From Hyphomicrobiaceae bacterium (GTDB lineage Bacteria > Pseudomonadota > Alphaproteobacteria > Rhizobiales > Hyphomicrobiaceae): a DNA stretch of 64,000 nucleotides. Numbering within the stretch: the first letter of the stretch is position 1; every line of letters starts with the position of its first letter. Location: NCBI GenBank assembly GCA_016793635.1, contig JAEUMD010000001.1, positions 222,375 to 286,374 of the forward strand, written 5' to 3'. Made by a program: the position numbers and the translations under genes. The notes below the pieces were generated by a model. The model searched no databases. It had not been told where the DNA came from and was given only the letters and a program-made list of their open reading frames with translations. Shown here piece after piece: positions 43,632-63,653 of this stretch.

Positions 43632-44693
43632 ATGGCAACCGATCCACCGGCACAACCGTCAGATCAACAAAAGTCCGTTGGCATAATTCCGCTCCACTTC
43701 GATGTTCCCACTCACATACTCCCGCTCAACACATTTATCGAAACGGCGGCACGGACCAAAGACATCGTCGAAGCCTTCAATCGCTCCCTCTTCGACGGCA
43801 GACTCGTCTATGAGATTTATGTCCTTACTCCCGAAGACGGCTCGTTCAAGAGCAAGCTCGCCGTCTACGTGATTTCCGGAGCAACAGCTGTCGCAGTATT
43901 TGCCGAGAGCGACATGGGTAAGGCGTTCGTCGAGGGTCTAACCAACCATCCACCGGATCACTACTTTCGCGAAGCAGGGAAGTACATCCGCAAGACCGTC
44001 ATCGACCTTGCATCCCAGCCTGTCGAGCAGCCTCATCCCACCGTCGCGGATCCCGACCATGACGCCGCGAAGCGTGACGGAAGCACCGCCATTTTGGTGG
44101 AAACCACCAAATCATTTCTGCAGAAGGATCGCAGCGAGCTGCGCAAGATCGGCGTCGATGAACGCAAATTCCGTGACGCCTACGAGGCGCGCAACGAGTT
44201 CTACATTGCCTGTTCTCAGAACCGGCAGATACAGGCACTCGGTTTCGAGGAAGAGCCCGTCTTTCCCATCAAACGCGCGGATTTTGCCCGCCTACAGGTC
44301 GCCCTCGGCCCCAAGGAGGACGTACCCCAAATCGACAACTGGATCGTCGAAATTGTTACGCTTAGCGTCACGTCACCCAACTGGGACCGTGAGGATCGCA
44401 ACAGAACCTGGAAGGGCAAGGATGCAAACAAGAAGGAACGGAACTTCTCAATCGAGGATGAGTACTTCTGGACTCTGGTCCGCGACCGCCAGATCAACCC
44501 ATCCATCATCGACACCATGAAGATGCAGTGGGCCTTCGTCACCGACAAGCGCCGCACGCCGCGAGTCTTGAAGGTCCTCGAGTACAACGCTCAGGTCCTC
44601 GGCGAGCCCCTTGATGAGAACGCCCTAAAGACCCTGCTCGGCCTGTACACCGCCGCCGCCAATGCGAATCCAGGGCTCTTCGACCGTCGTTGA
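43632..44693 (+). CDS. Unknown protein beside the restriction locus, 353 residues
   Basis: A soluble protein without a recognised family. The N-terminal half contains KLAVYVISGATAVAVFAESDMG, a possible hydrophobic hairpin, and a region of mixed charge. The C-terminal half (DNWIVEIVTLSVTSPNWDRE, RNFSIEDEYFWTLVRDRQIN and TMKMQWAFVTDKRRT) looks like a small beta-barrel domain found in stand-alone island proteins. Its place between HNH and the methylase suggests a defence role, which is inference. Confidence 0.6.
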   Translation: MATDPPAQPSDQQKSVGIIPLHFDVPTHILPLNTFIETAARTKDIVEAFNRSLFDGRLVYEIYVLTPEDGSFKSKLAVYVISGATAVAVFAESDMGKAFVEGLTNHPPDHYFREAGKYIRKTVIDLASQPVEQPHPTVADPDHDAAKRDGSTAILVETTKSFLQKDRSELRKIGVDERKFRDAYEARNEFYIACSQNRQIQALGFEEEPVFPIKRADFARLQVALGPKEDVPQIDNWIVEIVTLSVTSPNWDREDRNRTWKGKDANKKERNFSIEDEYFWTLVRDRQINPSIIDTMKMQWAFVTDKRRTPRVLKVLEYNAQVLGEPLDENALKTLLGLYTAAANANPGLFDRR

Positions 44694-48936: not shown

Positions 48937-49864
48937 CATTCCCAACTATCAGACCCTCATGTTGCCCGTCCTTCGACATGCCGCCGAGGGCGAGGTCACC
49001 ATTCCCGCCATCATCCCCAAGCTCGCGACCGAGTTCCAACTGACACCCGAGCAACTCACCGAGCGGATTCCCAGCGGCGGCTTCCCCGTGCTCAATAATC
49101 GCGCGCACTGGGCTAAGACCTACATGGTCAAGGCGGGCCTCGTCGAGCAAGTACGGCGGGGCGTCTTCAAGGCAACTGATCGCGGTCGGCAGCTCCTGGT
49201 CACGAAGCCGTCACGAGTCGACAATCGTACTCTCTCGCAGTTCGCCGAGTTCCGTGCCTTTACCGGGCGACATGCATCACCGACGACGGAAGCCTCCGAG
49301 GCGATTCTCGATGCCGTCGAGGAGACCAAGACACCGGCAGAGCGAATCGATGCCGCCATTCGCGAGATCGAGGCGGAAATCGAGGACGAGCTGATCGACC
49401 GCATCTTCGCTATCCCCAATCAAACCCAGCGTGCCGCCTTCTTTGAGGAGCTGGTCGTGCAGCTGCTCACGGCCATGGGATACGGCAAGGGGCTCGACGG
49501 TGCAGCGCGCCGCATCGGTGGGAGCGGGGATGGCGGTGTCGACGGCGTCATCCACCTGGACGCACTCGGTATTGACCGGGTGTACATCCAGGCCAAGTGC
49601 TACGAACCTCAATCCTCTGTGCCCGAACGCGAAGTTCGCGACTTCTCTGGAAGCCTCGACTCAAAGAAGACGACACGCGGAGTGTTCATCACCACTGCAA
49701 AGTTCTCAGGTCCATGCAGGACCTATATCGAGAGCATTCACAAGCCCATCATTCTTATCGATGGCCGCGAGCTCGCTCGCCTGATGCTGCGCTACAACGT
49801 CGGTGTCCGCGAAGACCGCGCCGTCGTCATCAAGCGCATCGACGAGGACTTCTTCGAGGCTTGA
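48929..49864 (+). CDS. mrr: Mrr-like restriction endonuclease
   Basis: A 311-residue nuclease. The N-terminal winged-helix Mrr_N domain (PNYQTLMLPVLRHAAEGEVT, then WAKTYMVKAGLVEQVRRGVF) is followed by the catalytic PD-(D/E)xK domain: GSGDGGVDGVIHLDALGIDR (Asp) and VYIQAKCYEPQSSVPEREV (Q-A-K). The methylase stop overlaps its start by eight bases (ATG at 48929), so they are one operon. It may be the cutting partner of the methylase or a methyl-dependent type IV nuclease. It ends with UGA at 49862-49864, the last gene in the window using UGA as stop with any certainty. Confidence 0.88.
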   Translation: MPDIPNYQTLMLPVLRHAAEGEVTIPAIIPKLATEFQLTPEQLTERIPSGGFPVLNNRAHWAKTYMVKAGLVEQVRRGVFKATDRGRQLLVTKPSRVDNRTLSQFAEFRAFTGRHASPTTEASEAILDAVEETKTPAERIDAAIREIEAEIEDELIDRIFAIPNQTQRAAFFEELVVQLLTAMGYGKGLDGAARRIGGSGDGGVDGVIHLDALGIDRVYIQAKCYEPQSSVPEREVRDFSGSLDSKKTTRGVFITTAKFSGPCRTYIESIHKPIILIDGRELARLMLRYNVGVREDRAVVIKRIDEDFFEA

Positions 49865-49974: not shown

Positions 49975-50583
49975 ATGACCGTGTTTTTCTACTCGATCAA
50001 ATGAGGGCAGGGTAAGACGACGCACGCTGTCGGCTACGCCAAGCATTGCGGCGGCGTGCTCATCACCAATGACCTCGATAATGGCACCGCCGACATCTAT
50101 GAGGCGGCTCTGCCATGAGGACGCATCGCTACGCTCCAGCCATGACAAGCGCTGAAGACCGTTGCCACCCGCTTCAAAGGCAAGCCGCTGGTCTTCGACT
50201 TTTGAGGCTTCGTTGAAAGCCGTGTGATTGAAGCCGCGCAGATGGCCAATATCTGCGCCGTACCGCTCTCCTACCAATCGACCGCCGACCTCATGCCTGC
50301 CGTGAAGACCGTAACTGCACTGCAGCCGCACTGCGCGAGAATCATCATCCTCATCAACAACACGTCTCCTGAGCACGTCGCCGACCTGGAGCACATTCTC
50401 CGCCAGCGCTTTCCCAAGGTCGCAGTCTTCGTGGTCAACCACTCCCGCTACATCTCACGTATCGCCGACGACGGTCTGACGGTCTTCGAAATTGCCGAAC
50501 TCGGCGGGCTGGAGCGTCATCAGCTCCGACACATCCTGCCGCAGATTGAGACGCTTTACGGCTACCTCGACCTACACAGCTAG
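49975..50583 (+). CDS. parA: ParA-like partition ATPase, UGA read as glycine
   Basis: A 202-residue protein only when UGA is a sense codon (in-frame UGA at 50002, 50116, 50143 and 50203; true stop UAG at 50581). The first UGA is the first Gly of the deviant Walker A: SIK[G]GQGKTTHAVGYAKH. Others give ALP[G]GRIATLQP[G]QALK and the Walker B-like LVFDF[G]GFVES. Later parts (CAVPLSYQSTADLMPAVKTV) match small plasmid ParA proteins. Trp or Cys in Walker A would destroy the site, so Gly is the only sensible reading. It starts the cluster ParA - small protein - Rep - iterons. Confidence 0.9.
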
Positions 50584-50612
50584 GCAGCACCTATTCCTTA
50601 ACCGAATACCTT

Positions 50613-50891
50613 ATGAAAAAAGACATCCTGGCGAAGGCCGTTCGCCTCGCCGACAAGACCAAAGCAAGACCAGAAAAAGTCGTGATCGCCAAGCCGGCGT
50701 CTCACCTCTTCGTCAAGAAGCCTGCCGCGCAAGTGCTCAGCGAAAGGCTCTACACGCGCCTGACCAAGGCCGAGAAGAAGCGCCTCATGGCGACCATCGG
50801 CGAGATGTTCCCAATCTCGGAGTTGCTTCGCGACCTCGTTATCCAATACCTCGATAAAAAAGACGCCGAAAATGGACGCAAGAAAATCTAA
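50613..50891 (+). CDS. Small basic protein between ParA and Rep
   Basis: A 92-residue protein, very basic at its N terminus (MKKDILAKAVRLADKTKARP) with a helical C-terminal half (LTKAEKKRLMATIGEMFPIS, ELLRDLVIQYLDKK) that looks like a helix-turn-helix. By position it could be the ParB-like centromere-binding partner of the ParA, or a copy-number regulator. It contains no UGA; its stop is UAA. The leader has the TTAAC-N10-ATG motif of this segment and no Shine-Dalgarno. It overlaps rep by 20 bases. Confidence 0.7.
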   Translation: MKKDILAKAVRLADKTKARPEKVVIAKPASHLFVKKPAAQVLSERLYTRLTKAEKKRLMATIGEMFPISELLRDLVIQYLDKKDAENGRKKI

Positions 50892-52044
50892 GTCCGAGGG
50901 TCTCGTCCCGGCAAGTCAGCAGCCCGCTCAGCTCGAACTTTTCCGCCTCGTCTCCGACGACGCCTACACCAACGCTTTCGACTTTTACGAGTCTATTCCG
51001 CGCTTCATGATCGCACGCTGAAACGCATCGACCGTGAAATGGAACCCGGACGGAACCGCCGCGCCGCTCAAGCGCGAGTTCACCTACCAGTCGAAGCGCT
51101 ACAAGCTCACCCTTGCTCCCGCCTATGTCGACCAGCCGAACGGCGACCTCCGCGCCGAGTTTCCGTGAGTGAAGGAGGAGGTGCTCGAATGGGTGCTGAT
51201 GAAGCTCGCCATCGACAAGGGATATTTTACCGATGGCGGCGACGGGCGACCGACATCGGACTCTTTCGTTCTCTTCACCTCGATCCATCGCATCGCCGAA
51301 GAGCTCAAGAAGCGTTGAACCAACCGCGACAAGGCGAAGGCCTACTCCTACGACCAGATCCGCGAAGGGCTCCAGGTGCTCGCCAAGACCAAGATCCATC
51401 TGAGAAGCGAGACCGACGACGACGACCTCGTCTTCTCGCCGATCGCCGACCTCGGCTATTTCAACGACAAGAAGTCCCGCGACGCCGCCAAAGCGACCGT
51501 CTACATCCGCTTCAACACTCTCATCTCCCAGGCAATTCTTTCGAGATCCTGGAGACAAATAAATTACGAGCGCGTCATGGGCGCAGACCTCTACCTCGTG
51601 CGCTGGCTCACCAAGATGCTCAGTCTCCGCTTCGTCTACGCCGCGCCGTCCAAAACCTACAACATCAAGCTCTCGACCATCATCGAGAACTCCGGCGTCA
51701 CCCTCTACGACCGCTTGTCCGACAATTTGAAGCTCGTCGAGCACGCATTATCGGAGATGACCGACATCGTGGCCCGCTACACGATCGAAAAGCAGATCGT
51801 GCGCAACGAACTCCAAGGCAAGGGCCGCATTCTTGCCGACGCCAAGATCGTCATCCGGCCAACGACGGCGTTCACCATCGAGCAAATGAAGACCAACGTG
51901 CACGAGAACCGCCTCGACAACGCTCGCATTGCAGAGGATTGAGACGTGATAACCGAGCCGAGACGCGAGGACTTCGCCAGCTTGTCCGACTACGAGAAAG
52001 CGAAAGCTGCGTTCCAGAGCAGCCGAACCATCGAGGAGCTATAA
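50872..52044 (+). CDS. rep: Plasmid replication initiator (RepB/Rep_3-like), UGA read as glycine
   Basis: A 390-residue initiator. In-frame UGA at 51019, 51166, 51316 and 51940 are read as Gly (IAR[G]NAST, FP[G]VKEEVLEW, KKR[G]TNRDKAKA, AED[G]DVITEP); the stop is UAA at 52042. The central part, with SRSWRQINYERVMGADLYLV followed by RWLTKMLSLRFVYAAPSKTY, resembles the winged-helix initiator family that binds iterons. It is immediately upstream of eight iterons. Start ATG 50872 overlaps the preceding gene, which suggests translational coupling. Confidence 0.82.
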
Positions 52045-52056
52045 CCCCACCTTGAG

Positions 52057-52087
52057 AGTGCCACGACGCATGTCAGGGCACTTTTTT
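52057..52087 (+). terminator. Rho-independent terminator after rep
   Basis: AGTGCC and GGCACT pair with a 14-base loop, followed by six T. It starts 12 bases past the rep stop. Confidence 0.75.
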
Positions 52088-52148
52088 CGTCCCTCAGAGG
52101 CTGGTCCGTCGCCCGATATGGAATGTTAAAAACTCCCCTGAAGAGCAC

Positions 52149-52482
52149 TACGTTTTGGTTCCCCGACACTCGCCGTTTTTCCTACGTTTTGGTTCCCCGA
52201 CACCTGAGATGGGCTTCCTAACCGTTGACATTTTTCGGTGTTGCACGTCTGCCAACTACGTTTTGGTTCCCCGACACCATCGAAAATCTACGTTTTGGTT
52301 CCCCGACACCATCCGCATCCACCCTTTTGTTGAGTTTTTGACATCGAAACCTACGTTTTGATTCCCCGACACCGTTGTCTTCCTACCCTCACCGACGTTT
52401 TGGTTCCCCCATACTCTGCAGTTTACCTACGTTTTGGTTCCCCGACACTCGCCGGTTTTACTACGTTTTGATTCCCCGACAC
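52149..52482 (+). repeat. oriV: Eight 21-bp iterons, candidate plasmid replication origin
   Basis: Direct repeats of TACGTTTTGGTTCCCCGACAC begin at 52149, 52183, 52257, 52289, 52352, 52394, 52428 and 52462. Copies 5 and 8 have GATTCC for GGTTCC; copy 6 is degenerate (GACGTTTTGGTTCCCCCATAC). Spacings are 32-34 bases or about twice that (63, 74) with one of 42, so most copies sit on one face of the helix. AT-rich spacers such as TTGAGTTTTTGACATCG would suit an opening region. Position directly after rep is classic for theta-replicating iteron plasmids. Confidence 0.92.
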
Positions 52483-52846
52483 CCCCACGCGCGTGGCTTG
52501 CCGCCCGACGCATCACGTTCAACACCCTCTTTCTCACCCGCTTCTTTAGCCTTTACTCTTTTTCTTAGTCTGGTGCCGCACCTGAATGTCAAAAAGGTCG
52601 AGGAACCAATGAAGACACTTGCGTATGAAAAAGAAAACAGCCCGCCTGCGGTGGTGATGGCGAGTATTGCGCGGTGTCTCGAATATAAAGTGGTGGCCCG
52701 CGGAATCGAGGCGGACTGTTTTCTTTGGAAAGAGGCGCGGCAAGGCCGTGCCCCAGGAATTGGCGCAGAATTATTTGACAATCCCAGAATATCATTAGGA
52801 TTGGAATTGCAGCGGGGTATTCACTCGAACCAAATGAGGTGCTGCA
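52483..52846. other. Region after the iterons, one doubtful ORF
   Basis: About 360 bases. A frame from ATG 52609 reads MKTLAYEKENSPPAVVMASI and ARCLEYKVVARGIEADCFLW, continuing past the start of the next gene to a UAA at 52951. The overlap of over 100 bases and absence of a family make it doubtful. Repeated AAAGGTCG/AAAGAGGC stretches are not structured. Confidence 0.35.
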
Positions 52847-53050
52847 ATGGCCAAGGAAACCCCAAAAGCCAAACCCGACTACCACGTCCTCTTAGTCGAG
52901 GAACGGGAGGGGAAAGACCCCTACTGGTGGAAAATCGGCGCCGCTTGGGCTAATAAAGACGGAAAAGGATACAACGTCGAGTTCATGACGCCGAACGGCA
53001 AAGCCCGTTTCGTGTTGCGTGAGCCTTCCGAGGATTCCAAATCGTCTTGA
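52847..53050 (+). CDS. Small conserved protein, apparent UGA stop
   Basis: A 67-residue protein: YHVLLVEEREGKDPYWWKIG, AAWANKDGKGYNVEFMTPNG and KARFVLREPSEDSKSS. The W-I-G ... KDGKG-N pattern occurs in small proteins carried by proteobacterial conjugative elements. Unlike its neighbours it has a Shine-Dalgarno (GAGGTGCTGCA). Its natural end is UGA at 53048-53050; if UGA is Gly the frame continues 25 codons to UAA at 53123, through the hairpin GCCACCTCC/GGAGGTGGC. It may be a recent import from a standard-code host. Confidence 0.7.
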   Translation: MAKETPKAKPDYHVLLVEEREGKDPYWWKIGAAWANKDGKGYNVEFMTPNGKARFVLREPSEDSKSS

Positions 53051-53129
53051 CCCCAGGTGGAATTCCTCATTCCACTCGCCACCTCCCCTCCAAAAGGAGG
53101 TGGCATCCCTATTACTAATTAAATAACAT

Positions 53130-53450
53130 ATGAACCAATTACCCAAGGCAACCAACAAAGCTCTGAACCTCATTGATGCGGTCGAAAAACTTGCCGATCG
53201 TTGTCCACAAGACGGAATGGTCCTCGACGACTACAGAACGGAGGTGACAACCAAGCTTGCAGCCCTTATGACGCAACTTCCGAAAGACCTGGGAGCGACC
53301 GAGGGCGGCCACGACCGCTTCGAGCTCGAACACATGGTCGAGACTGCGGCAAGTCTTCCCTCGAACGCGGAACTGCGTGCGGCACTCGAAGACATTGTCG
53401 GCACAATCGATTGTCTGGTCTTCTTGCCGAAGTCAAAAGTGTTACACTAG
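53130..53450 (+). CDS. Unknown protein, 106 residues
   Basis: A soluble helical protein (TNKALNLIDAVEKLADRCPQ, FELEHMVETAASLPSNAELR). No family is recognised. No UGA; the stop is UAG. The leader CTAATTAAATAACAT-ATG carries the motif of this segment. It is followed after 3 bases by the next gene. Confidence 0.65.
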   Translation: MNQLPKATNKALNLIDAVEKLADRCPQDGMVLDDYRTEVTTKLAALMTQLPKDLGATEGGHDRFELEHMVETAASLPSNAELRAALEDIVGTIDCLVFLPKSKVLH

Positions 53451-53453
53451 GGC

Positions 53454-53801
53454 ATGAGCAAGTTTGCTCCAGAGCGCATCGAACAGAATCTCGTCGCGCA
53501 GACCGAGGCGCTCCTGTGCCGGATCGAAGCGCGTGCCAGCAGGCTTTCGGACATCCAAGATGCTAGCGCCTTGATGATGCTCGTCGGTCAGGTGCTCGAC
53601 AATGTCTCGGCGCTCACCGGAGAAACCAAGCACGATCGCGAGAGGTATCGCATCTGCAGCGTCGAGGCCGACTACCTTTTTTCCGGCCCGCTGGCCCTCT
53701 CACACAAAAACCGCGTGGCTATTCAAAACCATATGCACGATTTTGCGGCAAGCATCCGCTCAACGCTCAATCCGCCTAAAGATGACGACATCCCCTTTTA
53801 A
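53454..53801 (+). CDS. Unknown protein, 115 residues
   Basis: A soluble helical protein (FAPERIEQNLVAQTEALLCR, MLVGQVLDNVSALTGETKHD). No family is recognised. The stop is UAA and there is no UGA. It forms an operon with the preceding gene and ends at the bidirectional terminator at 53811-53848. Confidence 0.65.
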   Translation: MSKFAPERIEQNLVAQTEALLCRIEARASRLSDIQDASALMMLVGQVLDNVSALTGETKHDRERYRICSVEADYLFSGPLALSHKNRVAIQNHMHDFAASIRSTLNPPKDDDIPF

Positions 53802-53810
53802 TTATCACGC

Positions 53811-53848
53811 AAAAAAGTAGCCCACCCGATCAGGTCGGCTACTTTTTA
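53811..53848. terminator. Bidirectional terminator between convergent genes
   Basis: AAAAAAGTAGCC and GGCTACTTTTT flank a 14-base loop, so a hairpin with a U-run is made on both strands. It separates the plus-strand pair from the minus-strand H-NS-like gene, whose stop codon (UAG, 53839-53841) lies inside the right arm. Confidence 0.85.
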
Positions 53849-54159
53849 TTGATCAGGAATTTGGTGAGCGGCGCGCCATCGTCGAGCTTTGACTGCAGCC
53901 AGCCAGGAACGCGGCCCTTGCCCGACCAGGTGTGAGACGGATGAGCCGGATCGGCATACTTCGCCGGCAATGGCTGAGGTTTCGGCTTCACTTTGGTGCC
54001 AAGTACCTCGAGGGCCGAGAAGCCTTCATCCTTGAGCCGCGTCTCGAACTCGTTTCTGAGCTCGAGCCGGCGCTTTTCGCGCGTCTCCTCACGCACACTC
54101 TGAGCCTTGGCAATCAAAGCATCGAGTTCCGAAACCGTCATGCGCTTCAAATCGGACAT
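53839..54159 (-). CDS. hns: H-NS-family DNA-binding protein
   Basis: A 106-residue nucleoid protein. The N-terminal helices (LKRMTVSELDALIAKAQSVR, REKRRLELRNEFETRL) are an oligomerisation coiled coil. The C-terminal DNA-binding domain is typical of H-NS: YADPAHPSHTWSGKGRVPGW, then LQSKLDDGAPLTKFLI. Plasmid H-NS proteins silence AT-rich incoming genes; the AT-rich operon at 55.4-59.9 kb lies 1.2 kb away. The stop is UAG and there are no UGA codons. H-NS is a proteobacterial family, so its presence points to gene flow between the segment's past hosts. Confidence 0.88.
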   Translation of the reverse strand: MSDLKRMTVSELDALIAKAQSVREETREKRRLELRNEFETRLKDEGFSALEVLGTKVKPKPQPLPAKYADPAHPSHTWSGKGRVPGWLQSKLDDGAPLTKFLINKK

Positions 54160-54253
54160 GGCTCTTCAAGCCCTCTTTGTTGGTTGATGGCCATTTTTAT
54201 CGCGTGCCTGCATGGCAGGGAAACAGCCCATCTGCTCCAATGCGTCTCAGCGG

Positions 54254-55201
54254 CTATGAATCGTTTGAAGGTGCTGCGGATTGCTGATGGCCGAGGGCCA
54301 CCCACCATTCATTGAAATCCTTGAAGCCTTCATACAGCGGCGATCGATCCACGGCGTTGCGATGACCAAGCTCACGCTGCAGCCAGCGTGTAACGGTGCG
54401 GCCAGCTTCGTCGCGGTCGAGATAAAGCACGATGCGGCCGAAGCCATGAGTGTTGATGGCATGGAAGGCGCGCGCCTTGAGCGATAGCGAATGCAGAATG
54501 ATGACCGCGCAGTCGGGCTCGGTCAGCTCGCGCATCGCGAGCCAGCTCAAGAAGTCATACGGCCCCTCGAACACCGCCACGGTGCCCTTGTCGGCGAAGT
54601 TGATTGTGCTGATGTCCTTGCCCTTGCCGACGAACCCCTTGAACACCGGACTTCTGGCGTCAACTCCTTCGCCGCAGGTAAAGCCGAGCGCGAAATACGT
54701 CTTGGGCTTGCCGGGTGCCCTGAAGCGAATTTCTTTCAGCCATTGGCTCGCAAGTGGCTTTGATATGCAACGCGCAAAGAGATACTGCCACAGCGCCGGA
54801 TGCACGATTGGACCGCTGTCGACGATACTGAAGCTGCGGTCTTGTTCGTTTTCTTTTTCATCCGCAGGGGCCCCGCGATTTTCGAGCAGACTGCGGGTCG
54901 CCGCTGGCACAGTTCCGGCAAAGCCAGACTCCAGGATGGCGAGCGCCTCCTTGACCGACACGCGGCACATCTCGACCACGAGGTCGATAACGTTGCCGCC
55001 GCGCGCGACACCGTGGTCGAACCACAAGTTCTTGACCGTATCGACTTTGAACGACGGCGTCTTGTCGCCTTCGCGGATCGGACTCGAGTACCACAGCTCA
55101 CGACCGTTGCGAGTTATCTTCGCGGGCTTGATGCTGTGGCGCTCCAGATAGAGCGGAATCGGAACCTGACGGGCTTGGTCGGCACGCATGAAAGCTGGCA
55201 T
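54254..55201 (-). CDS. Toprim-domain DNA primase-like protein
   Basis: A 315-residue protein. An N-terminal CHC2-like part (WYSSPIREGDKTPSFKVDTV, KNLWFDHGVARGGNVIDLVV) is followed by a Toprim catalytic domain (KGTVAVFEGPYDFLSWLAMR, with Glu, and FGRIVLYLDRDEAGRTVTRW, with DxD). Zinc-binding cysteines of the classical CHC2 are missing. It would prime plasmid replication. The frame opens at 55219; the ATG at 55201 (MPAFMRADQ) is preferred. The stop is UAG. Confidence 0.85.
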   Translation of the reverse strand: MPAFMRADQARQVPIPLYLERHSIKPAKITRNGRELWYSSPIREGDKTPSFKVDTVKNLWFDHGVARGGNVIDLVVEMCRVSVKEALAILESGFAGTVPAATRSLLENRGAPADEKENEQDRSFSIVDSGPIVHPALWQYLFARCISKPLASQWLKEIRFRAPGKPKTYFALGFTCGEGVDARSPVFKGFVGKGKDISTINFADKGTVAVFEGPYDFLSWLAMRELTEPDCAVIILHSLSLKARAFHAINTHGFGRIVLYLDRDEAGRTVTRWLQRELGHRNAVDRSPLYEGFKDFNEWWVALGHQQSAAPSNDS

Positions 55202-55212
55202 TAGGAAATACG

Positions 55213-55229
55213 CCTCCATTGTATGGAGG
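55213..55229. promoter_or_regulatory. 17-bp palindrome upstream of the primase gene
   Basis: CCTCCAT-TGT-ATGGAGG is a perfect 7-bp inverted repeat 12 bases before the primase start. It would be an operator, or pair the ribosome site GGAGG in the leader. Function is inferred from position only. Confidence 0.5.
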
Positions 55230-55270
55230 AAGCCGCGTTCTCCAAATCTATCTGCTGAAGACGGGAGAGG

Positions 55271-55349
55271 GACTCGCCTGCTTACCGATTGTACGCCAAC
55301 CCGCAGCCCGTCAAGAACCGCGGTCTCTCAGGGCGTCTCACGCCGCGCT
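55271..55349 (+). repeat. 79-bp direct repeat, left copy
   Basis: This copy matches 60055-60133 at 69 of 79 positions without gaps, with a 38-bp perfect core at 55287-55324 (starting GATTGTACGCCAACCCGCAG). The two copies bracket the two-gene AT-rich operon exactly. Neither copy contains an obvious transposase gene. Confidence 0.9.
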
Positions 55350-55407
55350 CAAGATGAAAGGCCATATTTCAAAAGCTCTTGCCTGTAGCGGCTCGGCTTG
55401 ATCGAAA

Positions 55408-56046
55408 CTAGAGGGACGGTCCGCCGTCTAACTCTCTGCATGGGTGTGAAATGGTTCCAATGAAGGTGTTGAAGTTAAAGTCGGTGCAGCTATCAGGTCA
55501 TCAAAAGCAGATGGGATCGTAAGGTAAATCATACTTTGGGTACGCAAAATATCATTGTGGGTACTTGGCAATATATTTTTTTGATTCCAAGCGAAAACCA
55601 AAAATAAATCACACGCCATTTCCAGGATATCCCTTGAATCAGCTGGTGCCAGACAAATAATAACAGTTTAGTTTCGGTCTAATATTGGCGTTGAAATTCC
55701 TGTTGAATGAATTTAATCCAGCAATCTCGTATTCCCATTTTTGTTTTCAACCCAAAATCTTCTTTACGATTTCCAGTTGCTGGAAATTGTATTCATCTAT
55801 TGCGATGTTTTCCTCCTCGGTTCTGCTGTTCGGCTCTCTTTCTGTATTGGGGTAGAACTTTACACTAGCTTCATACGCCTTCACCCACTGTTCCATGTGT
55901 ATAGCTGCTTCGTTTGCGGCAATCTCTTGAGCTTTGTTACGAACTCCTTCTTGCCGTGTTCCTATTGATTTCAATGTTCACAAGACAACTACTATGATAG
56001 CAATCAAGCCGAATAGCAAGCGGTGCCACAGTTTCAGTTTTTTCAT
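55408..56046 (-). CDS. Membrane-anchored unknown protein, UGA read as glycine
   Basis: A 212-residue protein that exists only with UGA as sense: about seven in-frame UGA codons (for example IIVVVL[G]TLKSIG, KILG[G]KQKWEYE and PICF[G][G]PDSC), stop UAG at 55408. One N-terminal membrane segment (LWHRLLFGLIAIIVVVL) is followed by a short coiled coil and an aromatic-rich extracellular part (FAYPKYDLPYDPICF) with cysteines, suggesting a disulphide-bonded surface protein. It starts 4 bases after the giant gene, so the pair is an operon and it may help the giant protein's export or display. No family is recognised. Confidence 0.75.
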
Positions 56047-56050
56047 AGAG

Positions 56051-59000
56051 TTATTTTTTCTTAGATTGTATATTTCAGAAGTTCTTGCCGGTTGCAATTC
56101 ATCCATTTGACAGTGCAACGCTATATGTGAGGCTCATAGGGCTAGTTCCTTCCCAGTTCTGATGAGGATTCTCCATCACCTTGTACGTTCACGCGGCGAG
56201 AGAATTGAACTCGTAGTATCACTGGTTGTTTGTGACTTGAAACGGTTCACTACTGTGTTGCAGCTCTCAGTCGCTGTTCTGGTCGATGAAGATGGTCCAT
56301 CCAGCCATTACGTTTTCTCATGCGTCCTTGAGTCCATTCTTGTTCGCATCTGCATACACGTATCCGCTTATTTTTCCACTGTATGTCTCTGGCGCGTCGG
56401 TGAGCGAAAAGGTCTTTGTCTTCACCCCTTCTATGTTTCCAAACTTGTCTACCGAATAGAAGGTCAGCGTATAGGGTCACAGTCAATTAACGACGATAGG
56501 CGCCGTGTAGGGAGTGAAAGTTGGTGTGTAGTTATTGAGGGTGTAGTAGGTTCTGTACACGCCAGTTCCGTTGGTGTTGTCGGTGGCGCTCAACGTGATG
56601 GTCGCTGTTTCTACGTACGAATTCGCTTGGTTGGGGTTCACCGTTCAAGCAAGCGTCGCTACCGTAGTAGGAGCAACGATGTCCTCGAGCACCGATGAAA
56701 AATTGGAGATGGTCTCGTAGCTGCCGTTGTTGTCAGTATCGACTCCATAGCTCACGGCGTCGCTCGCGTTTTGCGCGACCTTTGCCCAATCTATCATGTA
56801 CTGTTGTGGTTGAGGAGCAGCACCGACCGCATGGATATACACTGTCCCAGTCCCGTCATTGTGGAAATTATCGACGAGAAGATTGTAGTTTCCAGTCTTT
56901 GATGCGTCGAAATCTATGCTCACCGAAGTGCCGGTCGTTGTGAACGTGTCGACTTGGCCGGAACTTGTTTGTACGCTCTCTAATGTCGTAAAATAGTCTC
57001 ATCCAGAAATCATCAGATCGTACTTCTCATCTGTAGTCCCACCGACATGCACTGTGAGGTCTTGCTTTTGTGGCAAGTACAGATGCCTCCAAGAACTCTC
57101 TCAAGATAGTCCATCTATAGTGGCACTGAGGGGCCTTGTAACTTGTACTCATGGAACCTGCTCAAAGATGTCGCCACCCTTAAAACCAGAGATTCTTCAA
57201 AGGCTGTCCGTTACGTACATATCAGATGAGCCAGACAGAGCGTATGCAGCATCGGTGTTGTTTAGTCCTACGGTCGGAGTGGGCTTTTGGTTTCACGCAT
57301 ATATGTCGTCAACATCAACAAGTGCAAACGTGTCGAAAGAAGTCCAGTGGTTAGCTGCATACAATGGCATGAGAACACCACCTGTTTGTGTAATCTCGAT
57401 ATACTGTTGATATGCAGGAAACTCCTGTCATCTATTTGGAAACTGGATATTGTTATCCCAAATATATATTCGATTACTCTCTATCTTATACGGCACCACT
57501 GCATGCCCGGCTGCTTCTAATTCGTTGGTGACAATTGGATCTCAAGTGTTTGTGTGAATGACCTTCTTTGCCTTTCACCAGAATTGCAAGATATAGGTCT
57601 TGTCAGGGTTCTGTTCCAAGATGTTTCGTATAGCTACAATACTCCCTGTTTGAACTATTGGGGTACGAGTGGTTCCGAATTGTGATAACTGGAACGCCAG
57701 AAGCGATTTCATCTTGACGTCATCATATACCGTCCAACGCGATCAATCGTTGTTGCTTGGGATTGCGGTTACCCCATCCCATATATGGTGGGATCCCATG
57801 AGTGAACTCAATCAATTATAATACGAATCGATGAAGTTAGGGTGCTTGAATTCCATTGCCGCTGATGCCGCCATACCATAACAAGCTCAATTACTGAGGG
57901 CTTCCGTTTGGTTTAATCCGAGTGCTTTAAATGCATCATTGAGCTTCGTTTGATTTGCAAATCATAGTGCATTGTTCGCAAAAGAGGTATCAAAGGCATT
58001 GTAGAAGATGTCCCATTTGTTTCAATCGGTATAGTTTCGGTGGTAATATGGAAATGTCGCATTGAATGATGAGGTTGTTCCACCATTCAGTATCGACCCC
58101 GTCAATCCTGCGTTGTTGAAACGGTACCCGTACGGATATGGTTCAAATCCATTGAAGATGCTGAAGTTTGTCTCGTTCGGAGAAAACTCAATGGCACTAT
58201 CAGCGCCAGCCGTTTTCACCTTCCAGTGGTAGTCTCCCGCAGGTAACTCACCTATCGGTATCAAGACTTTCCCTGTTCCTGTTGTAAACGTATCGGTCAC
58301 AGCCGTTGCGACAAGTCCGCCTGTTCCATAGACCTCGAATGAAAGCGCTATTGGGGTTTGATTTGAGGCATCTATGATTGCGCTCAGCGTCACGCCTGAC
58401 CCAGCCTGATAGTAGCCAATCTTGGTTCCCGCAGGAACAATCTCTGTGCTCAGAAGCGGACTCTGTATTGACTGCGTGAGATTCGTCGGAGTCGGAAGGG
58501 ACGAAGCGATGCATGGCTCCATATTGATGCAGTGCGTCGCACTTGCGGCCGACTCTAGAGTCCCGTTCTCTCCTACAACATGCCACGTTGCACCGGTTTG
58601 CGAGGTTAGAAGCGCTTGAGGGAGCTGATACTGAGATGTTTGCCCGAGTGCTGGGAGCTGCCCTGAGAGGTAAACTCGGTACTGCGAGTATCCTACTATG
58701 GGGTACACGATGTAGGTTGGGACCGCGCTATAGAGCCCGTTGAGCGAATTGAAATCGCCACTGAGTTTCAGATAGGTCAGATACGGAGTGACGGTTCCGG
58801 TGTTCAACACGTTTCCATGGACGGTCAGTCACAATCGATACCAGCCATCACCGGTGGCGTCCGAAACGCCCAACGTTCATTGGTTCGTCAGGTCTCAGTT
58901 GATCGTCAGCGCGTAAGGATAGTATATCGAATCGCCGGTGAGTGTTGCACCAGAGAGGACAGTGAGGTTCCCGTTCAGCTCAGAGGCGTAGTTGGACAGT

Positions 59001-59944
59001 CAAACAACCGTGTCGCCGTCAACGTACACGTTGTTTATGGTGTTGGTTCACGCAATGCGTCATGAGACGTAGACGTTTTTTGCGCTGAATACATGATCAA
59101 TCGTGGTCGCGTGTATCGTCTCGAAGTTGGTGACTATTTGTTGAAGAGAACGTGCCGTCACCTCTGCTCATGTTCCAGAGGGGTCTGCGATGATGAATCC
59201 GGGCGTGTCGGAGTTATAGCTTCCGATGACATCTCAGAGAGAAAGCGTTTTCGTCGTATCGAGATGCATGGTGTGCCCATCAAGATTGGTTCGCCACCCA
59301 CTGACGAAGTCGGACAGCACCGTGATGTCCGACTGAAAAAAAAGGGTTCCATGACAGTTCGGAGTTCACTGGAGCATTCTCTGCGTTTGTCCACCAGACA
59401 GAATGAGCAACGACGTCGCATCACAGGTTGCGCTTTGACTATTCTGAACGCCTCAGTTCACTCGGATGGTTGTCGGAGATGCGGCACTTCCATAGGAACC
59501 GTTGTTCGTGAAGTCGCCCAAAACGCTCACATTCTGGATGTGCGCAGCAAGCGTTCAGTTGTTTGTGAGGTTCCCCTCGACTCTGAGATTGAGCCCTTGA
59601 AAGTAGGGCGCGATGTATTCGGCTTGCCCGATCATTCCGTCGTTTTCCAGATCTCAGGTCGTTGTAATGAGGAAGCTTGCTGACTCGGTATTGATATCCT
59701 TTGCCAAGTGTCAGGAGCTTGTCACGGAGAGGCCAGTGAGGGTGATGTTCGATGCCACGGAAACGAGAGAGTTGATCTCTACGGTATCGCTTGCAGACGG
59801 AATCACGCCTTCAACCCATGTTCCCGTACTCGTCCAAAGTCACCCGCTCACGGTCGAGTGAATGGTCGGGCTCAGAGCAAAGGTCGGAACGACGAAAAAT
59901 GAACAGAAAGCCATGACTGCCAAACGGGATCGTATGTGCTTCAT
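56051..59944 (-). CDS. Giant secreted surface protein with cysteine-peptidase-like and SdrD-B domains, UGA read as glycine
   Basis: A 1,297-residue protein with about 36 in-frame UGA codons and no UAA or UAG before 56051. A signal peptide (MKHIRSRLAVMAFCSFFVVP, cleavage near TFA) is followed by a beta-helix-like region (residues 25-400) rich in N-G-T/D turns (LTNN[G]TLAAHIQN, IN[G]DLTNQ[G]TLG). At 641-850 there is a papain-like pattern: SN[G]ACYGMAASAAMEF (Cys about 688), then EAAGHAVVPYKIES (His about 814), then RIYIWDNN (Asp about 830). Ig-like parts and a final SdrD-B repeat (GYVYADANKNGLKDA[G]EN, NNQ[G]YYEFNSLAA[G]TYKV) end it. AT-richer than its surroundings, likely acquired. The peptidase role is inference. 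Confidence 0.85.
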
Positions 59945-60054
59945 AGGAAGGTGTTAGAAAATAGTATTATATTTATATTCGCTTCCCCAAATTAGTCAAA
60001 AAAACAGCGTGCTATGCCTCTTGCAAGGAGCCCTTGAGTGATTGTTTGGGTGGG

Positions 60055-60133
60055 GGCTCGCCTGCATCTTGATTGTACGCCAACCCGCAGCCCGTCAAGA
60101 ACCGCGGTTTTTCGAGGCGTCTCACGTCGCGCT
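60055..60133 (+). repeat. 79-bp direct repeat, right copy
   Basis: Same orientation as 55271-55349; the perfect core lies at 60071-60108. It sits just upstream of the giant gene's start. A shorter match (GATTGTACGCC) recurs at about 61,565, which may be a third, decayed copy. Confidence 0.9.
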
Positions 60134-60253
60134 GACGCGCCCGGCATCAGGCACATCCGAACGGTTCTGGACTGGCAGCTTAACCGGTTGGCGTTTGCCA
60201 GGAGTGCAGGCAGCACCCGCTGACCGGCATTTTACACTCTAACTTTTCGACAT

Positions 60254-60769
60254 ATGCCGAACTGGAATTACAACAGCGTGGAGATCCACGCACCCATCGA
60301 AGCCGTCATGGAGCGGCTCGTACCGACGAAGGAGAAGACCTTCGCGTTCAACATGCACAAGCTCTTCCCCGAGAATATCCCGGCCGACGATCCGACCGGC
60401 AACAAGACCTGGAACTACGACTGGTTCGTCGACAACACCGGCTCCAAATGGGCGCCCGAAGTTATGGTGAGTGAGGGCGACGATGATCTGACGTTTTTGA
60501 ACTACGACAGTGCCTGGACGCCAAACAACGGCACGCTAGAACGTCTCCACGAGATGACCGGCTGGACCATCTGTAACGACTACCGCGAGGAGGGCATGCA
60601 ATTCGCCGGCAGGTTTACCTGCGATGGCAGAAACTGTCGCGACGAGGAACTCGAATATCTGACGATCTGCGAAATCTGCGAGGAGGAAAAGCCGGAGGAC
60701 GAGTACGACGAGGAACTCGACGGACTCATCTGCAACGAATGCCGCGCCAAGGCCAAGCTTATTTCCTAA
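60254..60769 (+). CDS. Api92-like protein with C-terminal zinc ribbon (copy 1)
   Basis: A 171-residue cytoplasmic protein starting MPNWNYNSVEIHAPIEAVME, the start typical of the Api92-like ferredoxin-fold family found on phages and plasmids. The C terminus holds two CxxC pairs (LTICEICEEEKPED and LICNECRAKAK), a likely zinc ribbon. There is no UGA; the stop is UAA. The leader is TCTAACTTTTCGACAT-ATG with no Shine-Dalgarno. It is followed by a paralogue 12 bases on. Confidence 0.8.
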   Translation: MPNWNYNSVEIHAPIEAVMERLVPTKEKTFAFNMHKLFPENIPADDPTGNKTWNYDWFVDNTGSKWAPEVMVSEGDDDLTFLNYDSAWTPNNGTLERLHEMTGWTICNDYREEGMQFAGRFTCDGRNCRDEELEYLTICEICEEEKPEDEYDEELDGLICNECRAKAKLIS

Positions 60770-60781
60770 CCCAACACGACC

Positions 60782-61300
60782 ATGACCAACTGGACCCAAA
60801 ACCACGTCGATATCGACGCGCCGCTTACCGAGGTCAAGAAGTGGCTCGTACAGCCAAGTGACGGAAGACGGATGTTCAACATGCACATGCTCTTCCCTGA
60901 CTGCCACCCGAACAGCGATCCGGCCTGGGAGAACGTCTCTGACGAAGAAGGTTTCATGTGCCGCACAGGCTCGACCGTTCTGCCGGACCTCGACTTCGAC
61001 GACGTAGGCACCCGATATACGACCTTGCACTACGAGACGGCACGGGCGCCCAATACTCTGCTGTTACGGGAGCTGCACAAACTGACCGGACGGCACATCG
61101 ACTGCTTCTACGAAGACCCTTGCGGGGACTTCGAGGGAACCTTCGTCTGCAAGGACGGAAACCTCCGCAACGAAGAGTGGCGTTATCAGCCTCACTGTGA
61201 CCTTTGTGGTCAGAAGAGACCTCAGAGCGCGTACCGAAACTGGGTGAACGACTGCGTTTGCCGAGACTGCGAACGCGCGTCAGCGCATTCGAGTTGATAG
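60782..61300 (+). CDS. Api92-like protein with C-terminal zinc ribbon (copy 2)
   Basis: A 172-residue paralogue of the preceding gene: MTNWTQNHVDIDAPLTEVKK at the start and CDLCGQKRPQ ... CVCRDCERA at the end. It is terminated by UGA UAG (61295-61300); if UGA is Gly the protein ends HSSG. The pair probably arose by tandem duplication. It ends just before a strong terminator. Confidence 0.8.
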
Positions 61301-61320
61301 TTTTCCTTGGGCATCATCAC

Positions 61321-61351
61321 GAGCCGGACCATCAGGTCTGGCTCTTTTTTT
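61321..61351 (+). terminator. Strong terminator after the Api92 pair
   Basis: GAGCCGGACC and GGTCTGGCTC pair over 10 bases with one G-T wobble and a 4-base loop, followed by seven T. It lies 20 bases after the second Api92 stop. Confidence 0.9.
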
Positions 61352-61761
61352 GTGCTTGCCCGCTGTGGGTCACGAGTCCGCTTGGCACGAACCTGCGCCG
61401 CTCGGACGCCTTCGCTCGCCGCTCGTCCCGCTCCCTCACGTCCGCGGTGCCGAGACGATCTCGCTTCTCCGCTTGGTGCCGTTCGATGACCGCCCTTGCG
61501 GCCCTAAATCCGGGTCGCCCGCTGTCGCAACCGCTAACACGTTAGACTGATCAATCCTTCCAGGCGATTGTACGCCCGGACACCTGATGCCGAACCTGAT
61601 GCATCCCGAAAGTAAAGCACCGCGCCAACTAGCGGCGCACGCTGACGCTCTCATCACGATACCACAGGCGAACGGATGCTTGACTGTCGGGCTAACCGGG
61701 CGTGACTGGAGGGAAGGCTTTGACCAACAGAGCCAATTTTATCTTCTAACTTTTCTTACCT
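61352..61761. other. Intergenic region, no gene supported
   Basis: About 410 bases. The short open frames (for example 61436-61657 minus) have no leader motif and no domain pattern. At its right end TTGACC and TTCTAAC, 18-19 bases apart, look like the -35/-10 boxes of a leaderless promoter for the gene at 61762. Confidence 0.5.
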
Positions 61762-61923
61762 ATGCCCACACAAGAGCAAGTCCTCAGGATGGCAACGTCA
61801 TTTGCGAATGCCTACATCGAGGAGCACGGCTATGAAGGCCTCGGAGAGCGGGGCTTCGACGAGCTGGTCGATAGCTTCAGCGTCATCGTCGAGGCGAACC
61901 ACGAGCAGCTCTGCTTCGAGTAG
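61762..61923 (+). CDS. Small unknown protein, 53 residues
   Basis: Reads MPTQEQVLRMATSFANAYIE and ends NHEQLCFE with UAG. It is acidic and helical. It is accepted because of the leader TTCTAACTTTTCTTACCT-ATG, shared with its neighbours, and because the same architecture (short acidic helical protein) repeats in the two following genes. No family is recognised. Confidence 0.6.
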   Translation: MPTQEQVLRMATSFANAYIEEHGYEGLGERGFDELVDSFSVIVEANHEQLCFE

Positions 61924-62015
61924 CCACGACCGACCCGAGCTCCACTGCCATCAGGGGCTCGGCATCGGTGGTTCAGGGTTCAGATGGCAACTACTTATTT
62001 TCTAATTTCTTACCT

Positions 62016-62345
62016 ATGAAGAATATGACCACGCTCAGGCACATCGCCGGGCTGTATCTCGATATCTACAGCACACCACGCGACCTCGAACGACCGCTCA
62101 CACCGGAGCAGGTCAAGGATGCCGGTGTTTTCTTCCTTGATTTACTTGCGGCCCACGAAGCTGAGGCTCTCATCGAGCAAGAGCGCGACGCACGTGCAAC
62201 GCTCGTTGCGGAACCAGACTACCGCGACCTGGTCAATCAGTTCATCGAGAAATTCGAGCGAGACGAGGGTATCACCGAACTCTCGGAAGACCAGATGCGG
62301 GACGCTGGCGACCTCTTCCTCTCGCTTGCCGCCGAGCATCTTTAG
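62016..62345 (+). CDS. Small acidic helical protein, 109 residues
   Basis: Reads MKNMTTLRHIAGLYLDIYST, then LTPEQVKDAGVFFLDLLAAH, then LSEDQMRDAGDLFLSLAAEH. The pattern LTPEQ(V)xDAGxxFLxLLA occurs twice, so it contains an internal duplication. The leader is TTCTAATTTCTTACCT-ATG. The stop is UAG. It is related to the next gene by the H/F-R-x-A/C-LYLDxY start. Confidence 0.65.
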   Translation: MKNMTTLRHIAGLYLDIYSTPRDLERPLTPEQVKDAGVFFLDLLAAHEAEALIEQERDARATLVAEPDYRDLVNQFIEKFERDEGITELSEDQMRDAGDLFLSLAAEHL

Positions 62346-62362
62346 TTTCTAACCAACGACTT

Positions 62363-62653
62363 ATGAACCACGAATTCAGCTTCAGGCGCTTCGCCTGCCT
62401 TTACCTCGACGCCTACTGCGCCGACCACGTGCAACGCCAGGTCTTGAGTGAAACGCAAGTCACCCAAGCCCGGGCTCTCTTCCATGAGTTCCTTGCAGCG
62501 CTGGACGCCCCGGTCCTCGTGACCGGCGAGACCGTGTCGAAGAACACGCGACACGTGCTGTGCGCCGCTCGCAACCTCAGGTGCTTCGTCGGACAGTTCG
62601 CCCGAGATTTCCTGGGATACAGCGACATCCGTAAGCGCCGCTCATCGAAGTAG
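62363..62653 (+). CDS. Small helical protein, 96 residues, related to the previous one
   Basis: Reads MNHEFSFRRFACLYLDAYCA, then LSETQVTQARALFHEFLAAL and RCFVGQFARDFLGYSDIRKR. The first half aligns with the previous protein (GLYLDIYST / CLYLDAYCA; PEQVKDAGVFFLDLLAA / ETQVTQARALFHEFLAA). The leader TTCTAACCAACGACTT-ATG again lacks a Shine-Dalgarno. The stop is UAG. Confidence 0.65.
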   Translation: MNHEFSFRRFACLYLDAYCADHVQRQVLSETQVTQARALFHEFLAALDAPVLVTGETVSKNTRHVLCAARNLRCFVGQFARDFLGYSDIRKRRSSK

Positions 62654-62668
62654 CATCGGCAGCACCTC

Positions 62669-62690
62669 AGGCACCACTCGGTGCCTTTTT
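62669..62690 (+). terminator. Rho-independent terminator upstream of the methylase gene
   Basis: AGGCACC and GGTGCCT pair with a 4-base loop, followed by TTTTT. It ends the row of small genes and separates them from the methylase. Confidence 0.85.
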
Positions 62691-62711
62691 AATTACCTAA
62701 ACCATTTACCT

Positions 62712-63653
62712 ATGAAACCAACATACAAACTCGTTCAAACGGCCCAGGTAGCAACATGTAAAACTTCGGCTCAGACCGCTCAAATACTTGCACCGCTGAT
62801 GGCGGCAGCCGCTCAGACCATGAGGCTCGGCGATAGAAAACCGGTAATCTCGGTAAGGCCGTCAACGACCACGAAGCGCCCGACAGGACCGATACACAGA
62901 ATTGTCCACGGCGAATGCCTGGAGATGATGGCCAAGATACCCGACCACTCCATCGACTTCGTCTGCGCCGACTTCCCGTACAACATATCGGGAAAGGGCG
63001 GGCTCACCATGAGCTGAAGCCAGCTCATCAAGGCCGACTTCGGAGACTGGGACAAGTTTCCTTCAGAAGAGGCCTATCTCGACTTCGTGTTCAAGGTCTG
63101 CACCGAGTACCGCCGCATCCTCAAACCGTATGCCAGCATGGTGCTGTTCTTCGGATACCGCCACGCCGGATGGATTGCCCACGAGCTGCAAAGACGCGGG
63201 CTCTTCACGTTCAGAATGCCGCTCATCTGGGTCAAGGATAACCCACAGCCGAGCTACAAGAAGACCAGCTTCAGAAGCGGCTATGAAATGGGGCTCTGGC
63301 TCATCAACGACGGGGCGCAGTACGCCCAGCCGAAGACGTTCAACTTCCTGACACAGGCCCGCATGTGCAACGTCATGAGCTACCTCATCGGCCGCGACGG
63401 CTATAAGCGCACGCAGCATCCGACCGAGAAGCCTGAGTTGTTGACGCGCAGGCTCGTCGAAATCTTCACCGACGAAGGCGACGTCGTACTCGATAACTTC
63501 GCTGGTGGCGGAACCACAGGCGTGGCCGCATTCAAGGCCTGACGCAACGCCATCTCCATCGAGCGCGAGGCGAAATACATCGCCATGATCGAGAAGCGCC
63601 AGAAGGCGGTCGAAGCGCGCTTACGAGACCAGAGTAACAGAGAAAGGGCTTAG
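62712..63653 (+). CDS. Solitary DNA adenine methyltransferase, UGA read as glycine
   Basis: A 313-residue beta-class N6-adenine methylase. Motif IV is DFVCADFPYNISGKGGLTMS, followed by [G]SQLIKADFGDWDKFP. Motif I lies near the C terminus: GDVVLDNFAGGGTTGVAAFK, then A[G]RNAISIEREAKYIAM. The UGA at 63540 falls on the invariant Gly of the G-R-x-x-I-x-I-E motif; the other is at 63015. The stop UAG is at 63651 inside its terminator hairpin. No partner nuclease is adjacent, so it is probably a protective or regulatory methylase of the plasmid. Confidence 0.9.

Follow-up and report, generated by a model that had tools for sequence, protein, structure and literature searches.

A tRNA-integrated, plasmid-like element in a Hyphomicrobiaceae genome with gene classes that use UGA as glycine and gene classes that lack it

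We examined a 64,000-nt stretch of DNA (hereafter the window) from the genome assembly of a Hyphomicrobiaceae bacterium (GCA_016793635.1; G000 in our genome set) and found in its right-hand part an integrative, plasmid-like element in which the replication, partition and surface genes carry in-frame UGA codons that stand for glycine (genetic code 25), and the integrase, primase and restriction genes carry none. The window (G000:C11:222375-286374) closes the right-hand side of a contig of 286,374 bp; the genome has 3.82 Mb in 26 contigs (completeness 95.0%, contamination 3.5%), and we infer it to be metagenome-assembled. When its 16S was compared with plasmid records, the ten top-ranked matches were alphaproteobacterial throughout (82-84%), with lower-ranked matches of higher identity in eight records; we accordingly regard the organism as an alphaproteobacterium or something close to one. 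The initial 260 kb of the contig lie outside the element, and the 38.8 kb of that part that fall within the window read as standard-code DNA.

The left edge of the element lies at ~38.8 kb; on the right it is truncated where the contig stops, at 64,000. A tRNA-Met half at 38,790-38,832, an integrase at 39,045 and a comparison with G001, a genome of the same genus that is 99.7% identical to the window through 38,807 and then diverges within the tRNA-Met, together indicate that the element spans ~38.8 kb to beyond the contig end. In the empty-site comparison, the flanking gene was present in 3 of 17 genomes (G000 included), and the G001 contig stopped at the same tRNA. Contig C2 of G000 opens with an intact tRNA-Met, which is only suggestive as the partner site because its T stem differs from that of the window fragment; an Rfam scan of 34-64 kb gave no match. 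The initial annotation of this DNA had described a plasmid-like segment starting at 49,975, and the recoded genes are indeed located there, but the integrative element itself begins at ~38.8 kb with the tRNA-Met fragment (38,790), and the recoded segment (49,975-63,653) forms its inner half. The features of the element within the window were as follows:

38790..38832, minus strand: 3′ half of a tRNA-Met (initiator type by our reading), the left attachment site and host/element boundary, recognized from sequence.
39045..40379, plus strand: tyrosine integrase, 444 amino acids, 28 GGN codons, no TGA, stop TAG (Pfam Arm-DNA-bind_3 9e-19, Phage_integrase 1e-17).
41743..42270, minus strand: IrrE/ImmA-type metallopeptidase (CapP-like), stop TGA (Pfam Peptidase_M78 2e-22; PADLOC capP 7e-34).
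43632..44693, plus strand: 353-amino-acid protein, stop TGA, without a Pfam or PADLOC match.
44839..48936, plus strand: Eco57I-like restriction-modification enzyme, 78 GGN codons, no sense TGA, stop TGA (Pfam Eco57I 2e-36; PADLOC DrmMI 3e-91, type IIG 1.5e-66).
48875..49864, plus strand: Mrr-type restriction enzyme, 23 GGN codons, no sense TGA, stop TGA (Pfam Mrr_cat 3e-31; PADLOC mREase_IV 1e-74).
49975..50583, plus strand: ParA-like partition ATPase, 4 in-frame TGA, stop TAG (PHROG ParA 1e-4; no Pfam match; 20 plasmid records match, best 32.5%).
50613..50891, plus strand: small protein between parA and rep, no TGA (open reading frame, ORF).
50872..52044, plus strand: RepB-like replication initiator, 4 in-frame TGA, stop TAA (plasmid Rep relatives).
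52148..52486, plus strand: eight iterons of 26 nt each (CTACGTTTTGGTTCCCCGACACC...), the presumed origin (repeat sequence).
52847..53122, plus strand: 91-amino-acid ORF, 1 in-frame TGA at codon 68 of 92 (doubtful).
53839..54159, minus strand: H-NS-like protein, no TGA (Pfam Histone_HNS 9e-13).
54254..55219, minus strand: CHC2/Toprim primase, 24 GGN codons, no TGA (Pfam Toprim_2 and Zn_ribbon_DnaG, matched using the longer frame, P0005).
55408..56046, minus strand: 212-amino-acid protein, 7 in-frame TGA; its homologues adjoin SdrD homologues in Gracilibacteria.
56051..59944, minus strand: SdrD_B-domain protein, 1297 amino acids, 36 in-frame TGA, probably exported by our reading of its sequence (Pfam SdrD_B; Gracilibacteria-class relatives).
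60254-60769, plus strand: Api92-like gene, no TGA (DUF1281_C 5e-5).
60782-61300, plus strand: gene resembling the preceding one by eye, with TGA as the last codon ahead of TAG (doubtful), no Pfam match.
61968-62345 and 62363-62653, plus strand: two small ORFs, no TGA.
62712..63653, plus strand: CcrM-like DNA methyltransferase, 2 in-frame TGA, stop TAG (Pfam N6_N4_Mtase 3e-37; CcrM 6pbd 1e-35).

The initial annotation had counted about 53 in-frame UGA codons in five genes on both strands, and this number proved exact, with all five genes at the positions given: 4 codons in ParA, 4 in Rep, 7 in the gene at 55408-56046 (minus strand), 36 in the SdrD_B gene and 2 in the methylase. Two small ORFs (52847-53122 and 60782-61300) have one additional TGA each, both doubtful. 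We also recovered the motifs in which UGA had been said to supply a glycine, namely SIK[G]GQGKTT (G10 of ParA), A[G]RNAISIE (G287 of the translated stretch) and NNQ[G]YYEFNSLAA[G]TYKV, together with the standard-code motif compared with the last of these, GYYEFTGLKPGTYTT, which lies in the ORF at 10229-11848 (minus strand). That standard-code protein of the host part itself carries SdrD_B-like repeats.

Because we delimited the 15 ORFs of the segment with translation table 25, under which TGA cannot terminate, the observation that all 15 end in TAA or TAG is not a fair count, and the fair set consists of the eight ORFs without any TGA. These eight end in TAA or TAG under either code (8/8), as expected if UAA and UAG are the genuine stops of the segment, and the two small ORFs are ambiguous in this respect. 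In the host part (1-38,700), TGA terminates 17 of the 22 ORFs of at least 200 amino acids, and at that rate the chance of eight non-TGA stops in eight would be 7e-6. When the SdrD_B gene region (56051-59944) was base-shuffled 1000 times, the longest run free of TAA and TAG had a median of 174 and a maximum of 434 codons, compared with 1297 observed.

We then asked where else the replication initiator occurs. Among 60 relatives, five genomes matched Rep besides the window's own copy, three of them with TGA, and among 397 genomes of the order seven matched, its own genome counted. In-frame TGA was present in the Rep relatives of G019, G045, G052, G090 and G209, so that the recoded gene is found in four families including the window's own; the Rep matches of G024 and G297, which are only 28-31% identical, lack TGA over their full length. 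G090 (99% complete, 30 contigs) holds four Rep matches, one of which (C16) is a short divergent fragment.

The surroundings of these genes showed that the element family is integrative, inserted by tyrosine integrases at tRNA 3′ ends in standard-code contigs. In G209, the element is bounded by perfect 51-bp repeats (91-141 and 26,654-26,704), both on one contig, the first inside an intact tRNA-Arg(CCT) and the second beside the integrase. The G045 contig runs from 20 kb of genes that are open under the standard code through a tRNA-Leu, an integrase and AlpA to a recoded parA and, at the contig end, a recoded rep; in the 20-kb flank, 1 of 14 ORFs of at least 200 amino acids has a TGA stop. Contig C4 of G090 (389 kb) shows, from its left end, recoded rep and parA, cargo, AlpA, an integrase, a tRNA 3′ half that we read as tRNA-Lys, and host genes, of which 8 of 21 stop at TGA. 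In both the window and G090 C4 the tRNA 3′ half adjoins the integrase, and the window contig holds the left tRNA half only. The G209 element additionally encodes a VirD4-like coupling protein (T4SS-DNA_transf 8e-53), a relaxase (Relaxase 3e-7) and MobC (1e-5); no relaxase or coupling protein was found among the window proteins scanned with Pfam.

Several further observations concern these loci. The TGA-free cargo of G090:C13 (L083, 661-8906) includes one protein with MORN repeats, one with WD40 repeats and a weak caspase-like match, and one of the trypsin family. In G052:C114 (L075, 1-1106), a broken recoded rep fragment is followed by a transposase-like start and then by murE/murF-like genes (both by eye), a join that is perhaps mediated by an insertion sequence or else made in assembly. 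Immediately outside the window's element, a possible defence gene encodes a TIR-domain protein (35703-36722, plus strand; Pfam TIR_2 1e-17).

To identify the residue encoded by UGA, we compared the family members with each other (relatives 46-78% identical), scoring ordered pairs of a TGA site and the residue opposite; G090 C4 (a near copy of C14), G090 C16, G052, the C13 parA and the G209 parA were left out of this test. Glycine stood opposite TGA in 50 of 101 pairs, a rate equal to that of GGN codons (0.50, n = 287), and the seven other tabulated residues were paired with glycine at 0.00-0.09. The log-likelihood ratios for UGA were 115.5 for Gly, 26.5 for Ser, 20.5 for Ala, -27.0 for Cys and -284.5 for Trp, the last two values ruling out Cys and Trp.

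For an independent comparison we located code-25 genomes through an EF-Tu/IF2 motif with TGA for Gly, which gave 25 loci (13 titled Gracilibacteria, 4 Patescibacteria group, 8 uncultured or unnamed bacteria; GC 0.21-0.42), and took as our Gracilibacteria-class set the 288 genomes in the class of one such locus. Subjects were read with code 25 on both strands, and SdrD matches came from 10 of 10 loci. At the SdrD TGA sites, these proteins had Gly in 95 of 160 cases (0.59; GGN 0.57; others 0.038), at those of a pilin-like protein of G209 in 43 of 79 (0.54; GGN 0.55; others 0.027), and at those of the 55408 gene in 12 of 35 (GGN 8/43; others 0.034). These alignments confirm that UGA stands for glycine in the segment 49,975-63,653; the glycine assignment of the initial annotation is borne out by close relatives and Gracilibacteria-class proteins, distant homologues alone being undiscriminating.

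The same searches assigned the surface genes to a Gracilibacteria type. Relatives of the SdrD protein occurred in 25 of the 288 genomes, the best being 41% identical over query residues 487-1295 (1.9e-172) with 63 TGAs in the subject, and a 55408 homologue lay downstream of the SdrD homologue, as arranged in the window, in 9 of the 10 best loci (GC 0.22-0.32). The G209 pilin-like protein matched 230 of 288 genomes; the ten best matches were 40-49% identical across roughly the first 240-290 residues, and many weaker ones rest on the pilin N-terminus. Within the window, an 81-bp direct repeat (88% identical; 55269-55349 and 60053-60133), found nowhere else in the genome, brackets the SdrD/55408 gene pair and may be a trace of how this pair was inserted. 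Class JAEDAM01 is treated in PMC13092985, type IV secretion systems of Patescibacteria are treated in PMC12102498, and a screen for alternative codes reports GC contents of 0.21-0.53 for Gracilibacteria and Absconditabacteria, having excluded mobile-element families and treated local signals as contamination (PMC8629427).

The initial annotation had also proposed to look in the source assembly for a tRNA-Gly(UCA) and for the absence of prfB, and neither sign of a code-25 cell was found. G000 encodes both release factors, RF1 and RF2 (scores above the NCBI cut-offs, with RF-1 domain matches), and none of its 46 tRNA matches, all typed with ARAGORN in a genome that is 95% complete, has a UCA anticodon. 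The host reads UGA as stop, and the restriction genes inside the window's element themselves terminate at TGA. An apparent UCA tRNA in G000 was a pattern match inside a tRNA, which ARAGORN typed as tRNA-Glu(UUC) in both G000 and G052. Across six carrier genomes the UCA-tRNA pattern gave 43 matches, and among the 21 run through ARAGORN there was no UCA tRNA, two being tRNA-Glu; in the Gracilibacteria controls, a tRNA with anticodon TCA, labelled SeC by ARAGORN, was detected in three of three. The whole G209 element contains no tRNA besides tRNA-Arg.

When we tabulated codon use across elements, TGA made up 110 of 410 Gly codons in rep, parA and surface genes, and 0 of 726 in integrase, primase, transfer, restriction and other cargo genes. 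By class, TGA accounted for 37 of 129 Gly codons in rep (7 genes), 16 of 51 in parA (4 genes; 2 of 16 in a fifth, the G209 parA) and 57 of 230 in the surface genes (3 genes), and for none of 129 in integrases (5 genes), 70 in primases (3 genes; 0 of 27 in a fourth, in G209), 14 in AlpA (3 genes), 6 in H-NS (1 gene), 50 in transfer genes (3 genes) and 457 in other cargo (10 genes). The absence from other cargo is partly a matter of choice, since those genes were picked from table-11 ORFs; the remaining classes were picked by family. Counted as genes with TGA, in classes unaffected by ORF choice, the division was 0/5 for integrase, 0/4 for primase and 0/3 for AlpA, against 7/7 for rep and 5/5 for intact parA. 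The G209 relaxase terminates at TGA. The window methylase (62712-63653), with TGA in only 2 of 22 Gly codons, is intermediate between both gene classes, and may be a recent arrival or may be used in both cells.

We lean, with moderate confidence, to the view that this is an integrative plasmid-like element written for two codes, which alternates between a standard-code host and a cell in which UGA encodes glycine. In the standard-code host, UGA would terminate Rep and ParA, so that the element could not replicate itself and would be inherited as an integrated island expressing its integrase, restriction/defence and mobilization genes. Mobilization would proceed from this standard-code side, and the DNA would pass into an attached or neighbouring UGA = Gly cell of the Gracilibacteria or Absconditabacteria type, where Rep and ParA would be made at full length, the iteron origin would fire, and the adhesin and pilin genes would be expressed. 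On this model the genetic code itself would decide whether the element is integrated or episomal. We put even chances on the broader proposition that the code acts as a life-cycle switch, the element being integrated and silent where UGA is a stop and surface-modifying and autonomous in its replication where it is glycine, with one gene class per code and genes flowing between codes. Under code 25, the ratio of non-synonymous to synonymous substitution rates (dN/dS) between G090 C4 and C14 was 0.06 for rep and 0.07 for parA (integrase 0.12, AlpA 0.23). In this pair, the one close enough to measure, both recoded genes are thus under constraint when read with code 25, and it appears that some cell makes use of them.

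A number of results weigh against the alternating life cycle. The dN/dS ratio was measurable in that one pair alone. The third-position GC content (GC3) of rep was close to that of host ORFs (window 0.81 vs 0.76; G045 0.57 vs 0.57; G090 0.36-0.40 vs 0.31), and such tracking of the standard-code host suggests that the genes have long been in the host mutational setting, which a host suppressor would explain too. At least one G090 copy looks broken, the C13 parA (L083 11605-12211) being split over two frames; the G090 C16 Rep is a divergent fragment, and the G052 Rep has a TAG and lies in two pieces. In a BLOSUM62 test on distant standard-code homologues (25-30% identity), Ser came first, Ala second and Gly third; the code-25 half of this test excluded TGA partners and was thereby biased against Gly. 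A relaxase and coupling protein were seen in G209 alone. Finally, Rep was found in 0 of the 288 Gracilibacteria-class genomes with a profile and in 0 of 23 with the P0004 query, in genomes where plasmids are poorly binned, so that the code-25 phase of the element is unseen; loss of the episome in binning could hide that phase, which we regard as an excuse and not as evidence. The initial annotation's "plasmid from, or adapted to," a code-25 cell therefore stands in part: the surface-gene pair is close to Gracilibacteria, but for an element integrated in a standard-code contig, in a host with RF2, whose Rep was not found in the Gracilibacteria-class set, the reading as simply a plasmid from such a cell is not supported.

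Of the competing explanations, the one that survives best is conditional suppression in the standard-code host, in which a tRNA-Gly(UCA) supplied by a phage, another plasmid or an unsequenced locus would at times let the host read UGA as Gly, and UGA would lock replication until the helper arrives. The GC3 of rep and parA fits each standard-code host measured (3/3), the low dN/dS agrees with use of the genes in such a host, and recoded prophages in standard-code bacteria are described in PMC10746230. Set against this are the lack of a UCA tRNA among the 46 of G000, the presence of tRNA-Arg only in the G209 element, the failure of all 21 examined pattern matches, out of 43 in the carriers, to yield a UCA tRNA when each of the three Gracilibacteria controls shows one, and the Gracilibacteria-type surface genes, which have no obvious use in a standard-code host. 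We consider suppression unlikely.

Code-25 bacterial elements might instead sometimes enter standard-code cells, integrate and decay unread. The broken copies (G052, G090 C16 and the G090 C13 parA) and the origin of the surface genes on the Gracilibacteria side are what such a dead end would leave behind, but the rep and parA genes are at host GC3, the 11 tabulated genes (chosen as open frames) nevertheless lack internal TAA or TAG, dN/dS is 0.06-0.07, and the restriction genes and the relaxase terminate at TGA, so that we give this explanation a slim chance. An equally slim one falls to an unsampled code-25 lineage with proteobacterial GC that owns the plasmids, joined to standard-code contigs by co-assembly or binning: in the window, as in G045 and G090 C4, the recoded part does lie at the end of its contig, and PMC8629427 reports that a large code screen met code-25 contig contamination elsewhere, but a chimeric assembly is disfavoured by the joins at tRNA 3′ ends beside integrases in several genomes (in G209 with both repeats on one contig), by the recurrence of the module in genomes of four families of the order, and by the GC content of the window rep, 0.58, compared with 0.21-0.42 in our 25 code-25 loci and the 0.21-0.53 published there.

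If the element does alternate between two codes, it would bear on several questions. A differing genetic code is usually regarded as a barrier to horizontal gene transfer, and these elements straddle that barrier and keep genes for both codes, carrying Gracilibacteria-type genes within proteobacterial chromosomes. Contacts of code-25 ultrasmall bacteria with possible hosts would be recorded naturally in such elements, host pairs would be predictable from insertion sites, and the elements would be a natural case for thinking about biocontainment based on the code. Standard-code annotation, and screens that call local in-frame stops contamination, can miss or discard such DNA.

With respect to replicon type, the window carries a RepB-like initiator with adjacent iterons, as in iteron plasmid replicons. 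Rep matched 1297 PLSDB records; the 20 listed are 24.8-30.0% identical, and several carry the annotation replication protein or RepB family. Rep had no Pfam, NCBIfam or PDB sequence match. Viral contigs contained no Rep or SdrD relatives, one weak ParA relative and two distant methylase relatives, and phages gave no match to SdrD or ParA. The features of a recoded phage or prophage, structural genes and a suppressor tRNA of its own, were not seen: a tRNA search of the window gave none, and PHROGs searched with five window genes matched only ParA, methylase/helicase, primase and unknown-function families.

The closest known plasmid was unnamed2 of Sulfitobacter sp. S223 (NZ_CP083562.1), a standard-code, alphaproteobacterial replicon that shares the order primase, rep, parA and restriction genes and is 42% identical in the window primase, 23% in the window ParA, 37% in the G209 coupling protein and 33% in the G209 relaxase. 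Unlike the window's element, it is circular and has a TGA stop in 5 of 20 listed coding sequences; its annotated rep did not match the window Rep at 1e-3, and an SdrD match was not reported.

According to PMC10746230, recoded phages and prophages occur in standard-code hosts, often with their own suppressor tRNA, and our elements resemble these as mobile DNA with a reassigned stop codon in standard-code genomes. They differ from those phages in that UGA is read as Gly, a suppressor tRNA was not found, the replication module is of plasmid type and TGA occurs in some gene classes only. The same paper proposes that code-11-compatible phages of Gracilibacteria and Absconditabacteria avoid in-frame TGA and so can function in code-25 and standard-code cells alike, whereas here some genes demand UGA = Gly and others avoid sense TGA. 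Among the matches listed in full-text PMC literature, from which subscription papers are mostly absent, we recognised no paper on plasmids or integrative elements recoded in this way.

Integrative mobilizable elements, which reside at tRNA genes and carry a tyrosine integrase and a relaxase, offer a further comparison. The elements described here share with them the tRNA 3′-end repeats, the integrase at the edge and, in G209, the mobilization genes; they are unlike them in that their replication and partition genes are unreadable in the resident host.

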